Shown: positions 1 through 8,790 of the stretch, one piece after another
How positions within the stretch are numbered: the first letter of the stretch is position 1
Layout: the number at the start of each line of letters is the position of its first letter
Origin: Candidatus Poribacteria bacterium
GTDB lineage: Bacteria > Poribacteria > DTPJ01 > WJIO01
Reading direction: 5' to 3'
Length of the DNA stretch: 8,790 nucleotides
Assembly: GCA_014730235.1 (NCBI GenBank)
Contig: WJIO01000204.1
Coordinates: forward strand, 1-8,790
Position numbers and translations under genes: made by a program
Notes under the pieces: model-generated
Told to the model about the DNA's origin: nothing
The model's database searches: none
The model's input: only the letters and a program-made list of their open reading frames with translations

Positions 1-2835
1 AAGCAAAATGGTATATCTGTTTCCATTATAAAACCTCAAACCTATGGCATTGATTTTTACGGCGACTGCCTGTATACGTCAGAAAACGAACTGAAAAACT
101 ACCCAGAAAGAGTAAAGCGTTTTCGAGAAGCCAGCTTAAAGGGTTGGGAATATGCCATGAGCAAACCGAATGAAATAATTGATATTATAATCAATAAATA
201 CAATGCAAAAAAATCCGGGGAGCATCTGAAATACGAAGCGGACAAAATGCAGGAACTCATTATGCCCGATCTTATTGAAATTGGACATATGAATCCGGGA
301 AGATGGAAACACATTGCCAATACTTATGTCAGTCTTGGTCTTGCCGAATCGGAATACTCACTTGAGGGATTTATATATAATCCCGAACCTGAGGGTAACT
401 ATACCTGGGTTTACTGGATAATGGGGATCATGACTTTGCTAATTTCTGCTGCCTTTGTATCCAATTACATATTTATAAGTTATAACAGGCATTTAAAACA
501 GGCAGTGCTTGAAAAGACTGAAGAAATTCGCAAAATCAATATGGAACTTGAAAAAAACCGGGCAAATCTGCAAACCCTTATTGATAATACTGAAGATATA
601 ATGGTCTCCCGTGATCTTAATAACCGGGTTATGGTATATAACAAAGCCTTCGCAGATATTACAAAAGAATTGTTTGGTGTTAAAGCAAGACCAGAATTGA
701 ACACGCTGGAACATCTTACTGAAGAAAAACGAAAACATTGGGAAAATATTCTGAATCAGGTAAAAATGGGACAGGAACATCATGAGGAATTTACCCATGT
801 ATTCAAAGACGGCTCGGTAAGATACTACGAAATATTCTTCAAACCCATATTTAATGGAGATGTAGTAATAGGAACAGCGGAATTCAGCCGGGACATTACA
901 GAATATAAAAGATTCCAGGAAGAATTGATGGAAAGAAAAGCTGTTTTGGAAAAATCCCAGGAGATAGCCAATATAGGGAGCTATGTATGGGATATGCGGG
1001 ATGATTCCCTGGAATGGTCAAAAAATATGTATGCCATAGCCGGGTTGGATCCCGATAACTTTGCCGGGAATCTCAGCGAGGTAATACAGAACAACCTGCA
1101 TCCTGATGACAGAGATAGAGTTACAAAAGAAATCCAGGATATGATAAAAAATAAAAAAACCGCCTCTATGGAATTCAGACTAATAAGACCTGATGGGGAC
1201 GAAAGATATCTCAGATCCGGGGCGGAATTTATCTTTGATGAAAACGGCAACCCTATAAAGACTGTTGGCGTGCATTTCGATCTAACAAAATTAAGAGAGA
1301 TGGAAATCAATCTTCAACAAAGCGAGGAACATTACCGCCGCCTGGTTGAATCCAGTGAGGATTTAATATTCAGTGTTGATCGCGATGGCGTATACCATAC
1401 AGCCGGAGGTTCAAGGCTAAGGGATTTTGGATTAACTCCTGATGATGTTATCGGAAAATCCATGGTTGATATTTCCAGCCCGGAAATCGCTGCCGAATAC
1501 CAGGCAAAGCACGATAAAGTCTTTGAAACCAGTTTGCCTATAACCTATGAGCATGAAGTTGACTACGCTGGTGTGAAAAGATATGATCTGACAACAGTTT
1601 TCCCAATTAAAAACGAAGATGGACATGTGGAGTTGGTGGGGGTAATATGCAGGGATATTACCGAACGACGGCAACTTGAAGCCGAAAGGCTTAAAGTTCA
1701 GAAGCTCGGTTCCATAAGCACTCTGGCTGCCGGTATAGCTCATGATTTTAATAACATCCTGACGGCTGTAATGGGCAATGTCTCTATGGCAGAATCATAT
1801 CTGATTACCAATAAACCTGTTCCCAGGGTGTTGGAAAGAGTCCAGGCGGCGGACAAGGCCCTTCAACAGGCAGAGGAACTTTCAACCCGACTTCTTACAT
1901 TTGCAAAAGGTGGTCTTCCAGTAAAGGAATTAGGTTCAATAAAGGGATTTTTAGAGGAATCAGCCGAATTTATGCTGACTGGTTCTGATTCAAAGTGCGA
2001 ATTTCAATTATCCGAAGATTTATGGTTTGTAGAATTTGATCCCGGGCAGATAAATCAGGTAATTAACAATATATTACTGAATGCCCAACAGGCCATGCCT
2101 AACGGCGGAACGGTGAAAATCAAGGCAGAAAATACAGAAATTAACGGAAAACATGGACTTCCTCTGGAATCCGGCCCCTATGTTAAAATATCAATATCTG
2201 ACGAAGGAATAGGTATATCAGAAAAACATCTTGAGAAGATCTTCGATCCATTCTTTACTACAAAACAGTTGGGAAGCGGTCTGGGACTTTCCACGTCATT
2301 TTCTATCATAGATAAGCACGGTGGAATAATAACTGTGGAATCTGAAATTGGCGTGGGAACTACGTTTCATATATATCTTCCAGCCTCTCACGAAAAACTG
2401 AAGGAGAAGAGAGAAATACTCGAATCGGTTCAACCTGGAATGGATATTTCAGGTTCAGGGAAAATACTGGTGATGGACGATGAGGAATTTATCCGGGAGA
2501 TGGTGGAAGATATGCTTTCAGAACGGGGGTTTCAGGTTATCCAGAGCGAAGACGGTAAAGAGGCTGTGAATCTATACAGGGAATCAATGGAATCAGATTC
2601 GCCCTTTGATATGGTTATCCTTGACCTGACAGTTCCCGGCGGAATGGGTGGAAAAAAGGCAATCGAAAAGCTACAGGAAATAGATCCCCACGTTAAGGCT
2701 GTTGTATCCAGTGGTTACTCCAACGATCCTGTTATGGCTAATTTTCAGGAATACGGGTTCAGCGGTGTAGTGGCAAAACCCTACAAATCCCGGGAACTGG
2801 TAAAAATTTTGAATGAAATTATGGATAACTCTTAA
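1..2835 (+). CDS. Hybrid sensor histidine kinase with NMT1/THI5-like input domain (5'-partial)
   Basis: The frame is open from base 1 with no stop, and the first 52 codons read as good protein (YGIDFYGD, FREASLKGWEYA), so the true start lies outside the window and the Met at 157 is internal. Residues below count from that Met. The start of the window to about residue 75 is the C-terminal part of an NMT1/THI5-like periplasmic binding domain (HMNPGRW at 44-50). A membrane helix covers about 84-108, then a coiled coil at 111-138. Three PAS domains follow at about 136-255, 262-380 and 388-505. HisKA carries the phospho-acceptor His529 in AAGIAHDFNN. The HATPase has N-box N638/N642, G1 DEGIGI at 682-687, F-box 696-700 and G2 GSGLGL at 706-711. 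A C-terminal receiver has D774/D775, acceptor Asp823, S851 and K874. All catalytic residues are present. It probably senses a small ligand outside the inner membrane and signals by phosphorelay. Its output partner and ligand are not visible here. Confidence 0.95.
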   Translation, partial: KQNGISVSIIKPQTYGIDFYGDCLYTSENELKNYPERVKRFREASLKGWEYAMSKPNEIIDIIINKYNAKKSGEHLKYEADKMQELIMPDLIEIGHMNPGRWKHIANTYVSLGLAESEYSLEGFIYNPEPEGNYTWVYWIMGIMTLLISAAFVSNYIFISYNRHLKQAVLEKTEEIRKINMELEKNRANLQTLIDNTEDIMVSRDLNNRVMVYNKAFADITKELFGVKARPELNTLEHLTEEKRKHWENILNQVKMGQEHHEEFTHVFKDGSVRYYEIFFKPIFNGDVVIGTAEFSRDITEYKRFQEELMERKAVLEKSQEIANIGSYVWDMRDDSLEWSKNMYAIAGLDPDNFAGNLSEVIQNNLHPDDRDRVTKEIQDMIKNKKTASMEFRLIRPDGDERYLRSGAEFIFDENGNPIKTVGVHFDLTKLREMEINLQQSEEHYRRLVESSEDLIFSVDRDGVYHTAGGSRLRDFGLTPDDVIGKSMVDISSPEIAAEYQAKHDKVFETSLPITYEHEVDYAGVKRYDLTTVFPIKNEDGHVELVGVICRDITERRQLEAERLKVQKLGSISTLAAGIAHDFNNILTAVMGNVSMAESYLITNKPVPRVLERVQAADKALQQAEELSTRLLTFAKGGLPVKELGSIKGFLEESAEFMLTGSDSKCEFQLSEDLWFVEFDPGQINQVINNILLNAQQAMPNGGTVKIKAENTEINGKHGLPLESGPYVKISISDEGIGISEKHLEKIFDPFFTTKQLGSGLGLSTSFSIIDKHGGIITVESEIGVGTTFHIYLPASHEKLKEKREILESVQPGMDISGSGKILVMDDEEFIREMVEDMLSERGFQVIQSEDGKEAVNLYRESMESDSPFDMVILDLTVPGGMGGKKAIEKLQEIDPHVKAVVSSGYSNDPVMANFQEYGFSGVVAKPYKSRELVKILNEIMDNS

Positions 2836-2845
2836 GTCTACTGAT

Positions 2846-3048
2846 ATTTCTAAAATTAACTAAAACCAGATGCTGCGGTGCTTAAAGAGACACTGGCAAA
2901 TGAAGATGCTAACACCCTGTCATTCCTGCTTCAAGCTTTTTGAAAAAGCTTGAAGCAGGAATGACATAGAACTATATTCTTTGAGCATTTTCATCTGTTT
3001 CTTCATGCTGAATTCTTATAAACATTGGTTTTAGTTAATTTTAGAAAT
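2846..3048. repeat. 203-bp inverted-repeat element, possibly MITE-like
   Basis: A perfect 23-bp inverted repeat bounds this interval: left arm 2846-2868 (starts ATTTCTAAAATTAAC) and right arm 3026-3048 (its exact reverse complement). The midpoint of the outer arms (2947) nearly coincides with the midpoint of the nested palindrome at 2918-2966 (2942). The flanks between show weaker complementarity, for example GCAAATGAAGATGCT on the left against AGCATTTTCATCTGT on the right. The whole interval could therefore fold as one long, imperfect hairpin. There is no gene inside. I cannot see a clear target-site duplication. It fills nearly the whole gap between the kinase stop and the CapA-like gene. 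Confidence 0.6.
2918..2966. repeat. Perfect 49-nt palindrome (24-bp arms), GTCATTCCTGC family
   Basis: Arms of 24 nt (2918-2941 and 2943-2966) are exactly complementary around a single central base. The outer 12 nt, TGTCATTCCTGC, are identical to the arm of the second palindrome at 5334-5361. The inner part adds an extra stem (TTCAAGCTTTTT). In RNA this would make a very stable hairpin downstream of the kinase gene and could act as a terminator or 3'-end stabiliser. No clear U-tract follows, so a classic intrinsic terminator is not supported. The sequence resembles short extragenic palindromes dispersed in many genomes. Confidence 0.85.
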
Positions 3049-3102
3049 CATTTTCATTCTCACACTCAAATAGGAAGGATCAAATTTATTTACAAAGGCA
3101 AT

Positions 3103-5237: not shown

Positions 5238-5408
5238 AGGAATATTATCAAAGGTATTTACTTAAGGAAATTTTGGGAAAAGAGCCTCAAGTGTAGTAAT
5301 AATGTAATCGTTAAAAAATGAATACAATTTAGTTGTCATTCCTGCTTTCGCAGGAATGACATGCTGGAAAAATTTTCAACCAATTTCCACACTATATCCT
5401 GAAAAACC
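5238..5408. other. Intergenic gap between convergent genes
   Basis: This 171-nt interval separates the plus-strand oxidoreductase from the minus-strand receptor gene. Apart from the palindrome at 5334-5361 I see no open frame with coding character, no RNA gene and no U-tract terminator. Confidence 0.7.
5334..5361. repeat. Short palindrome, second copy of the GTCATTCCTGC family
   Basis: Two perfect 12-nt arms, TGTCATTCCTGC and GCAGGAATGACA, flank a 4-nt loop. Read on the minus strand the loop is GAAA closed by C-G, a GNRA-type tetraloop, so the RNA hairpin would be especially stable downstream of the receptor gene. It sits between two convergent genes, 48 nt after the receptor stop, where a bidirectional terminator or 3'-end protector would be useful. 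There is no U-tract, so function is inferred from position only. Its arms are identical to the outer 12 nt of the palindrome at 2918-2966. Confidence 0.85.
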
Positions 5409-7382
5409 TCAAAAGTTAATAATTGAGAAAAAACCTTTAAGATGAACATAAAAACCCAGGTCAAATGAAGCGCCAATAGGGTGATAACGATAATTTTTAT
5501 CCCAAACGTTTCGGAGAAGAAGACTTGCTTGTAATCTTCTTCGCCAAAACCATTTTTTGAACTGTAAATCAAAAACAGTTGATTTTTTAACTGTCGAAGA
5601 ATATTTAACTTTAATAAGACCTAATTCGTAAGATTCCCCGTCAATATTTTGGTAATCCGTCCATTTAGATGAAGAAAGATAGCTTAACATTGCCCAAATC
5701 GAGAAATTTTCCACCGGATTATAAATAAAACGATAACTCGCTTTATGTTTCGGGATTGATTTCCAAACATCCTTGAAAACATCATCTCCGGCAATTGTAG
5801 TACGATAGCTATAAAAAAAACGATGTTTAAGTTGAGAAGCAGGACGATATTTTATGACGAAATGTCCACCTAAAGTTTGTCCGTCTTGATGCGCGTAGAT
5901 TTGCACAGGGGAAGAGAAAGAATAATCCTCGGGATGAAAATCAAAAAGCTGTTTCTCCAAATAGAGGTCGTAGAAAAATCGGTAGGAACCTGCTGTTTCC
6001 AATGTTAGCTTACAATTAAGATTGTGTTTCCAGATCATATCAGCAGTAGCTTGTCTGCTTTTACCAATATTACCGATAATAGTGTAATTGATATTATTTT
6101 CTTTAAGTAAATCGTACCCTCGTTCAGACCAATACCACAAGTTATTATCCTCCTCCAAAAGCCTTTGAGAAAAGGATAAAATCGTAGAAACTTCATGTTT
6201 AGAACATACCTGCCAATTATTTGTCAATGCTCCTTTAATTCCGATTTTACCGCCACTGAGTGTAGTCAAAACATTGATATCTTGTTGGACATTATCGGCT
6301 AAACTGTAATTGATAATTCCATATACTTTACCGACATGATGAAAATCATTTTCAAGTTGGTAACCTGTATCTAAGTGAAATCTTTCAAACCCAACCCCAA
6401 GTTTGCTTTTGTCGAAAACACTTTCAAAATCACCTTCGAAGTTCGCATAAAAGTTACTTGATTTCCAATCAAAATCAAAATCAAGAGTGTTTGGCAATTC
6501 ATTGATTTGATTCCTGGAATATTTAAGACGATATGTAAGACCTAAATTCTCAGATAATGAAAAATTGCCATTTATTCCAACATGACACATCATATAGTCC
6601 ACAGGGATTTCTCTACCCAAAGGTTTAAAAAAGAGGAAGTATTTATCCGCGTTGGAGTAACTTGCCAGAAATTCATGTTTCCCATGAAATTTCTCCAAAC
6701 CCATCTTAAGAAAAGATAGGGTTCTCTCAAGCGCCATGAAACCCTCATCTGCATAAATGCTCTGGTTTCGTTTGACCGTCGCTAAATCTGTAAACGAATG
6801 CGTCTGAGCCATTAATCCCATACGAAAATAAGAATTTTTGAATGCAAAGTCTATAGTCGTTGATAAATCCTTTCCCATCCTATCAACATTCGGTGTTGCG
6901 AATTCTGTATATTTGTAAGGTCCGGGATCTTTCGTTTCGCTGCCTGCAGCTACACCCCCTTGAATGAAAATTCCTGGCTTGGGTTTATTTGTATGAATAT
7001 GAATCAAACCCTGGTCTACAAATTTACCTCCGTATATTTGGGGTATATTGAATATTTCAACAAAAGAAACATTATCAATTACTGTTGATAGCATATTCAG
7101 ATGAATCAGATCAAATGAACTTAATTCGATTCTCTGACCATCAAGCATAACAGTCCAATTTTGTCTTTGGAAAGAAGACAATCCATTCATACTGACCCGC
7201 CAGGTATAGCCATCCATTGAGTTGACATTCAAGCCATCAGCTAAGAGCAAAACATCCCCGACTCGGATTAGGCCTGAATTTCTAATCATTTTGGCTGTTA
7301 TAATTTCTCTTTTAAAATTATCTCCGCTAACCCGAAGTGGAAAGGTAAAAAACAAAAGTATCGGTAAAAAGATATATTTCAT
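5409..7382 (-). CDS. TonB-dependent-receptor-like outer membrane protein (plug plus barrel), no evident TonB box
   Basis: The protein is 657 residues from the ATG at 7382, which overlaps the upstream stop as ATGA and is followed directly by a signal peptide (MKYIFLPILLFFTFPLRVSG). A Met 7 codons upstream at 7403 is less likely because it delays the signal peptide. Residues of about 25-133 read as a plug domain: IITAKMIRNSG..VGDVLLLADGLNV, WTVMLDGQRIE, VEIFNIPQIYGG, then IHIHTNKP. The rest is rich in alternating aromatic and polar residues, as in a beta-barrel. It closes with LLLRNVWDKNYRYHPIGASF and a terminal Phe, typical of this family. The plug begins only 4-5 residues after the predicted cleavage site, so the usual TonB box region is missing. 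Length is close to BtuB-type receptors, but the ligand is unknown. It is the last gene of an apparent minus-strand operon. Confidence 0.82.
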   Translation of the reverse strand: MKYIFLPILLFFTFPLRVSGDNFKREIITAKMIRNSGLIRVGDVLLLADGLNVNSMDGYTWRVSMNGLSSFQRQNWTVMLDGQRIELSSFDLIHLNMLSTVIDNVSFVEIFNIPQIYGGKFVDQGLIHIHTNKPKPGIFIQGGVAAGSETKDPGPYKYTEFATPNVDRMGKDLSTTIDFAFKNSYFRMGLMAQTHSFTDLATVKRNQSIYADEGFMALERTLSFLKMGLEKFHGKHEFLASYSNADKYFLFFKPLGREIPVDYMMCHVGINGNFSLSENLGLTYRLKYSRNQINELPNTLDFDFDWKSSNFYANFEGDFESVFDKSKLGVGFERFHLDTGYQLENDFHHVGKVYGIINYSLADNVQQDINVLTTLSGGKIGIKGALTNNWQVCSKHEVSTILSFSQRLLEEDNNLWYWSERGYDLLKENNINYTIIGNIGKSRQATADMIWKHNLNCKLTLETAGSYRFFYDLYLEKQLFDFHPEDYSFSSPVQIYAHQDGQTLGGHFVIKYRPASQLKHRFFYSYRTTIAGDDVFKDVWKSIPKHKASYRFIYNPVENFSIWAMLSYLSSSKWTDYQNIDGESYELGLIKVKYSSTVKKSTVFDLQFKKWFWRRRLQASLLLRNVWDKNYRYHPIGASFDLGFYVHLKGFFSIINF

Positions 7383-8014
7383 TCCAGAAAATTTTTCATC
7401 CATTTTGGTGTGGCAAAGGAATAACCAAATCCTATAGAAAAATATGCTAAATCAATTTGCTTATATGTAAAAATACGATTGTAACTAACCTCAAATCTCA
7501 TTGTCCAATTTTGGTATATCGGATAGCTTAAATGAGAATTTAAGCATGCGCTGAATTCGGTTTCAGTGAATTGAGTTAATTCATAAAGGTCTGACCATGC
7601 TGGCGTATTGGAGAAAAAGGTGCATAAACCGATACCAATACCCATAAACCATCCTACTCCATGAGGTAAAGAATATTTTTTGCCCCATTTCAGATGAGTA
7701 AAAATGCTATGAAAATCTTGAACTGTACCTTTCGCTTCGTTTGAAGTTATGCCTTTGTTCTTAGCTGAATAAGATAAGACTTGAACCTCGGCTTGCACAT
7801 CTCCGTAATAGAAAGGCATTTCCACGAATCCTTCAATGCCTTTGCCCGGTTCATAAAAATCGTGAAAACTATTGCGATTGATATTCGCAATATATTGTAA
7901 TCCGATTTGAAGAGAATCAAAAGCTTGTGGTTCTTGGGCATAAATTAACCCACTCTGTAATATAGTCATCAATGCTTTGACTATAAAAATAACTGCCAGC
8001 TTCTTTAGAAACAT
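7379..8014 (-). CDS. Predicted outer membrane beta-barrel protein, family not recognised
   Basis: The protein is 211 residues. A Sec signal peptide (MFLKKLAVIFIVKALMTILQSGLIYA, likely cut A-Q at 26/27) leads into a chain of alternating hydrophobic and polar segments with many aromatic residues and glycines (GVGWFMGIGIGLCTFF, MRFEVSYNRIF, YFSIGFGYSF). This suggests about eight short barrel strands. A short tail, TPKWMKNFLE, follows the last strand. The start at 8014 is the first Met after an in-frame TGA at 8021-8023. AGGAG at 8028-8032 lies 13 nt upstream, somewhat far for an ideal Shine-Dalgarno. The gene starts 6 nt after the preceding broken gene and overlaps the receptor gene by 4 nt, so it probably works with the receptor at the outer membrane. 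I do not recognise the family; a porin-like or adhesin-type role is possible. Confidence 0.75.
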   Translation of the reverse strand: MFLKKLAVIFIVKALMTILQSGLIYAQEPQAFDSLQIGLQYIANINRNSFHDFYEPGKGIEGFVEMPFYYGDVQAEVQVLSYSAKNKGITSNEAKGTVQDFHSIFTHLKWGKKYSLPHGVGWFMGIGIGLCTFFSNTPAWSDLYELTQFTETEFSACLNSHLSYPIYQNWTMRFEVSYNRIFTYKQIDLAYFSIGFGYSFATPKWMKNFLE

Positions 8015-8020
8015 ATAGCT

Positions 8021-8444
8021 TCATTTTCTCCTTCCATATTTCCACTTGCTGTACTGGGTTTGAAAAACCAAATGATCTTTACCGTGCCTCTCATAAAATC
8101 TCCGCCAACCTGACTTATTCCTCTCTATGGCATTAAGTATCCGCTTATCCGTGGAAATCTGGAAAGACATATCGCGTTTGGCTATCGGTTTTGTTTTCGG
8201 GTAGAAATCGGGAACAAGAATATTAACATAGAGAAGAAATCATTTTGGATATACTATGCCTGTAATAGTGCGTTTCACCAACAAGCTCACCATAACAGGC
8301 ATAGGATATCTCTGGCTTCTTAACCTGCACAGGTTTATTCTTTGAGCTTTTATTCTTTATTATGACGGGCTGATGCGCTTGGCCTACGGATGAAAAAAGA
8401 AACACAAAGGAAACACAAAGTAAAATCACTTTTACCAACTGCAT
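8021..8444 (-). pseudogene. Small secreted basic protein, frame broken near 8238 (or sequence error)
   Basis: From ATG 8444 a Sec signal peptide (MQLVKVILLCVSFVFLFSSVGQA) leads into a Lys-rich stretch and CYGELVGETHYYRH, ending at a stop at 8223-8225. The next frame is open from 8239 to a TGA at 8021-8023 and encodes a well-formed basic tail (VPDFYPKTKPIAKRD, then WRRFYERHGKD, then KWKYGRRK) with no usable start of its own. The two open frames overlap by only 17 nt. Removing one T from the minus-strand TTT at 8237-8239 fuses them through KMILLYVNILVPDFYP into one protein of about 140 residues. This suggests a one-base insertion by mutation or sequencing error. I do not recognise the family. 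The last stop lies 6 nt before the barrel gene, as expected for the first gene of an operon. Confidence 0.65.
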
Positions 8445-8450
8445 TAAATA

Positions 8451-8459
8451 CCCCCCCCC
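8451..8459 (-). promoter_or_regulatory. G9 homopolymer at the ribosome-binding position
   Basis: On the minus strand nine G follow an A and end 6 nt before ATG 8444, where a Shine-Dalgarno should lie, so the tract itself may bind the ribosome. An earlier in-frame ATG at 8468 reads MIRGGGYLMQ through the tract; from that start, any length change not divisible by three would shift the frame. Such runs mutate by slippage and are also prone to base-calling error. Confidence 0.5.
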
Positions 8460-8487
8460 TCTGATCATGATTTAATCTTCTAAATTA

Positions 8488-8493
8488 ATCATA
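8488..8493 (-). promoter_or_regulatory. Weak -10-like hexamer TATGAT
   Basis: On the minus strand TATGAT lies 43 nt upstream of ATG 8444. It matches five of six positions of the sigma-70 -10 consensus. No convincing -35 box at 16-18 nt is visible, and the region is A+T rich, so this could be chance. Confidence 0.2.
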
Positions 8494-8574
8494 GTTCTAA
8501 AAACGGTCATTTTTTGTTGATTATTCCATGAAACAGTTGTTCTGTTTTTCTATCCCAAGGCATTTACCCCGGGT

Positions 8575-8577
8575 TGA
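8575..8577 (+). other. TGA at peroxidatic Cys position, possible former selenocysteine codon
   Basis: The codon lies in TPG-TGA-TTEA, where peroxiredoxins carry TPGC(T/x)EA. A small hairpin (GCTG 8595-8598, loop CATGA, CAGC 8604-8607) starts 18 nt downstream, at a distance allowed for a bacterial SECIS. It has only four pairs, and its loop G is in the fourth position rather than the first two. The SECIS support is therefore weak, and a plain nonsense mutation of TGC or TGT is the alternative. Confidence 0.45.
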
Positions 8578-8610
8578 ACCACCGAAGCCAAAACGCTGCA
8601 TGACAGCCAC

Positions 8611-8642
8611 GACGAAATAGAAAAGAGACGAAATAGAAAAGA
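8611..8642 (+). repeat. Perfect 16-bp tandem duplication
   Basis: GACGAAATAGAAAAGA occurs twice without a gap (8611-8626 and 8627-8642). The first copy encodes DEIEK in the upstream peroxiredoxin frame. The unit length is not a multiple of three, so the duplication shifts the frame within the remnant. Confidence 0.9.
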
Positions 8643-8790
8643 CAGGAGCAATTCAAAGATAAACTTGCTTTGCCCTTTGATCTTCTAAGCGATAATAACA
8701 AAGAGGTTGCCAGGGCATTTGGGGTTTTAAATATTATCGGCACTCATGCTAAAAGAAAAACTTTCATTATCGATCCTGGGGGAAAGATCG

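Follow-up and report, generated by a model that had tools for sequence, protein, structure and literature searches.

A probable decayed duplicate of a Bcp/PrxQ-type selenocysteine peroxiredoxin gene in a Poribacteria genome

Selenocysteine peroxiredoxins and the fragment at the window end

The TxxU peroxiredoxins, which carry selenocysteine (Sec), are an established family of bacterial selenoproteins (PMC1088965, PMC1794560, PMC13188914). In bacterial SECIS elements, the small apical loop carries a G that is conserved (PMC1088965). Similar to the Bcp/PrxQ-type Sec peroxiredoxins (TxxU, COG1225, PF00578), the gene fragment at the end of the window, which is the whole 8,790-nucleotide stretch of DNA analysed here, has the fold family, the peroxidatic Sec codon and the TPGU motif. 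Different from these enzymes, however, the window copy is truncated and frame-shifted, has lost the G of its SECIS loop and cannot make the enzyme. PrxU of Eubacterium acidaminophilum (NF040737) has its Sec at the same active-site position as the window gene. The window gene and its near-identical copy on another contig of the genome (C141) are, however, on the Bcp/PrxQ side, and the true PrxU member of this genome is found on contig C337. Neither the enzyme nor its TGA codon is new.

The features that define the fragment are:
8536–8626, + strand: fragment of a peroxiredoxin spanning its peroxidatic site, VVLFFYPKAFTPG-U-TTEAKTLHDSHDEIEK
8575–8577, + strand: in-frame TGA at the peroxidatic position, well supported as a Sec codon by descent

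In frame 1 of the + strand, positions 8536–8626 give VVLFFYPKAFTPG-TGA-TTEAKTLHDSHDEIEK, and this translation was 93% identical to residues 37–66 of the C141 copy. Two Pfam AhpC-TSA (PF00578) matches, both above the curated cut-off of 26, were found in different frames, one at 8533–8628 (35.8 bits, E 8.9e-9) and the other at 8634–8789 (43 bits, E 5.3e-11). At the codon aligned to the window TGA, each of the 80 named homologues of the genome collection had TGC or TGT. These homologues were retrieved with a query that had Cys at this position and with six patterns, one of which disfavours TGA forms. The alignment with these homologues and the AhpC-TSA matches confirmed that the TGA is at the peroxidatic-Cys position of a Bcp/PrxQ-type peroxiredoxin fragment, as the preliminary description had stated. 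The stretch that it had delimited, 8536–8626, lies inside the remnant and is only part of it, as the homology extends from 8511 to 8790, where the window ends. In having TGA where homologues elsewhere encode the peroxidatic Cys, the window piece agrees with the TxxU family.

Three other peroxiredoxins of the genome also possess TGA at the same place, of which the one on C141 is nearly identical to the window copy. The other two are:
C401, 15035–15400, - strand: TGA-peroxiredoxin with TGA at the peroxidatic position
C337, 15874–16272, + strand: TGA-peroxiredoxin, a PrxU member (NCBIfam PrxU 379 bits, cut-off 270)

The frame of the C141 copy is undamaged for 131 amino acid residues up to the contig end, with TGA at codon 51. 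This copy matched Pfam AhpC-TSA with 142 bits and PrxU (NF040737) with 82.6 bits, which is below the equivalog cut-off of 270. Its top-scoring NCBIfam family was the Bcp thiol peroxidase NF006960, with 120 bits against a cut-off of 140 for a copy that is cut at the contig end. The C401 peroxiredoxin was 58% identical and had a lipoprotein-like N-terminus.

Damage and proposed history of the window copy

All damage in the window copy was defined with the C141 copy as the reference. The features concerned are:
8511–8539, + strand: homology to the leader that precedes the C141 gene (BLASTN 93% over 29 nt, C141:491–519)
8611–8642, + strand: perfect 16-nt tandem duplication (GACGAAATAGAAAAGA twice), frame-shifting, present as a single copy in C141
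8648–8655, + strand: deletion junction where 44 nt of the C141 sequence are missing, frame-shifting

While 27 of the 29 leader nucleotides are kept, a 211-nt deletion, whose junction was placed at about 8535–8537 by a breakpoint fit with one mismatch, eliminated the start codon together with some 36 codons. The preceding in-frame stop is at 8518, and no ATG, GTG or TTG lies between it and the TGA at 8575. Thus, the window gene is dead no matter how its TGA is read. Its open frame is not intact and has no start codon, and frameshifts occur downstream as well. Besides the indels, the window copy differs from C141 by two substitutions. One is at 8529 (CACGAAA in C141, CATGAAA in the window) and the other at 8600 (GCGTG in C141, GCATG in the window), and both are changes at CG dinucleotides. 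The ratio of three indels to only two substitutions is unusual, although recent decay could produce it.

Similar to bacterial pseudogenes that arise by short indels after duplication, the window copy is a redundant copy that shows truncation, a tandem duplication and a microhomology-scale deletion. Different from ordinary indel pseudogenes, however, the dead gene was that of a selenoprotein and its internal TGA is no part of the damage. A TGA within a broken gene may be the original codon rather than a lesion, which calls for caution.

The sequence gives direct evidence of the homology and the indels, as well as of the Sec machinery of the genome and the other copy. The end of the window is very likely a recently decayed duplicate, that is, a pseudogene, of a Bcp/PrxQ-type Sec peroxiredoxin. 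The C141 gene is presumably complete beyond the contig end, and both copies probably reside in one chromosome. In the C141 copy, SelB and tRNA-Sec would most likely decode the UGA as Sec in the cell, with a short hairpin as the guide, which starts about 17 nt past the UGA and has its apical loop 21 nt past it. Like other TxxU peroxiredoxins, the C141-type product would then use its selenol to reduce peroxides. The gene together with about 125 nt of its leader was very likely duplicated into another locus to give rise to the window copy. This copy then lost its start and N-terminus via the 211-nt deletion and its frame via the 16-nt tandem duplication and the 44-nt deletion, and it yields no protein.

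Contig ends and strain variation

The 3' part of the fragment is shared with the C141 contig:
8650–8790, + strand: 3' part of the peroxiredoxin fragment, 141 nt identical to the end of the C141 contig

The shared suffix is exactly 141 nt long and both contigs terminate there. This length equals the maximum k that the MEGAHIT assembler uses by default. Most simply, the shared 141 nt represent a branch of the assembly graph whose common continuation was not binned. Given that both contigs end at the shared branch, neither copy can be followed to its 3' end, and a strain variant is conceivable. The window contig and C141 would then be alternative versions of one region from two co-assembled strains, one with the broken and the other with the intact gene. 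The identical contig ends and the fragmented assembly, with its 451 contigs and a contamination estimate of 4.77%, are consistent with such an arrangement. However, the upstream sequences of the two contigs are wholly different except for the 29 nt of leader, and no long, nearly identical second version of 5238–8520 of the window occurs in the bin, where the best other match of this stretch spans 170 nt at 93%. Moreover, the repeat at 5298–5420 of the window, which matches about 40 or more places in the genome, including C141, C337 and C401, ties these contigs to one lineage. Strain variation is thus unlikely to account for the two copies, and decay of a duplicate is preferred.

Positions 5298–5420 and 2871–3060 of the window are palindrome-bearing dispersed repeats (TGTCATTCCTGC...GCAGGAATGACA), of which the former resembles REP-type elements. 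The first part of the window (1–2835) encodes a sensor kinase whose N-terminal end is NMT1/THI5-like and which also has several PAS domains, HisKA, HATPase and, at the C-terminus, a receiver domain.

Predicted SECIS hairpin, selenocysteine machinery and relatives

Downstream of the TGA, the window retains part of a hairpin:
8595–8607, + strand: remains of a predicted bacterial SECIS hairpin, GCTG-CATGA-CAGC, in whose loop an A replaces the G at 8600

The hairpin of C141 and of C401 is GCTG-CGTGA-CAGC, and in both its loop is 21 nt past the TGA. The numerical spacing and the G-position rule applied here are those of bSECISearch. By this rule, the window loop CATGA has no G in the tested position. 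Thus, of the SECIS suggested to lie 3' of the TGA, the remains of the hairpin were found in the window while the required apical G was absent. That the loop G was one of the earliest positions to mutate, with loss of Sec insertion before or alongside the structural decay, is a doubtful proposition.

A hairpin with its loop at the 21-nt spacing was present in all 28 relatives' loci whose aligned codon is TGA. The specificity of the relaxed SECIS rule is weak, as 65 of the 80 Cys homologues pass it at some spacing and 24 of the 80 at 21 nt. Given that most Cys homologues pass, the presence of a hairpin alone was not counted as proof. The SECIS evidence consists instead of the fixed spacing and of one and the same hairpin being shared by two paralogues that have diverged, and the structure itself is a prediction. 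Minimum-energy folding of the C141 stretch favoured another short hairpin, and an Rfam scan of the window at gathering thresholds found nothing, so that the SECIS has no support from a catalogued RNA family. Between C141 and C401, the hairpin residues LRDS are encoded by identical codons at 4 of 4 positions, compared with 34 of 68 at other identical degenerate residues, which points towards constraint in what is too small a sample.

All components for decoding Sec were found in the genome. The tRNA-Sec scored 79 bits and was called tRNA-SeC with anticodon TCA by ARAGORN, while SelB scored 367 bits and SelD, which carries an in-frame TGA of its own, 394 bits. SelA had two matches above the cut-off:
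C246:1704–2852: SelA match, 530 bits
C64:7849–9198: SelA match, 424 bits

The second of these may be a paralogue or a contaminant. Of 58 genomes searched, 56 had a SelB match above the curated cut-off, the set comprising this one and 57 others of the same order or phylum. The TGA position was verified in the 29 loci fetched from relatives, and 28 of them had TGA at the aligned codon. Given the machinery in the genome, the distribution of SelB and the TGA in these loci, Sec use is current in this lineage.

The preliminary description had held that an ancestral selenoprotein gene was lost here, perhaps after a Cys paralogue took over, and had named selA, selB, selC, selD and an intact peroxiredoxin paralogue as the genes to look for. 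That the locus is a selenoprotein remnant holds up, as the TGA is a Sec codon by descent in a dead copy and the genome has TGA-bearing copies together with the Sec machinery. All four sel genes are present, and the C141 copy is a paralogue with an undamaged frame, albeit one that carries TGA and is cut at the contig end. The window copy is indeed dead and Cys paralogues do exist, e.g., on C368 (TGT). However, with the undamaged Sec frame of C141, two more TGA-peroxiredoxins and the complete machinery retained, loss of the selenoprotein from the organism is contradicted, and replacement by a Cys paralogue is very improbable. What decayed was a spare copy only. The inference of a lineage that lost its selenoprotein is thereby corrected: Sec is still used, in several peroxiredoxins. 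The window copy is an ordinary decayed duplicate in a genome that keeps an apparently functional copy and is no evidence for a loss of selenium use, and the remnant provides a small example of a redundant selenoprotein gene in decay.

A chance nonsense mutation in a Cys-peroxiredoxin pseudogene, without any tie to Sec, would agree with the TGC or TGT of the 80 named homologues and is nevertheless hardly credible, because the same TGA occurs in the near-identical C141 copy, in two further peroxiredoxins of the genome, including the 58%-identical one of C401, and in most of the relatives' best matches.

Across the genomes searched, most best peroxiredoxin matches carried TGA. The nearest of the genomes compared shares only its order with that of the window, and its best peroxiredoxin match was without an in-frame TGA. 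Many genomes of the same phylum had multiple TGA-containing peroxiredoxin-like matches, often two of them adjacent, which suggests an enlarged set of Sec peroxiredoxins in the phylum.
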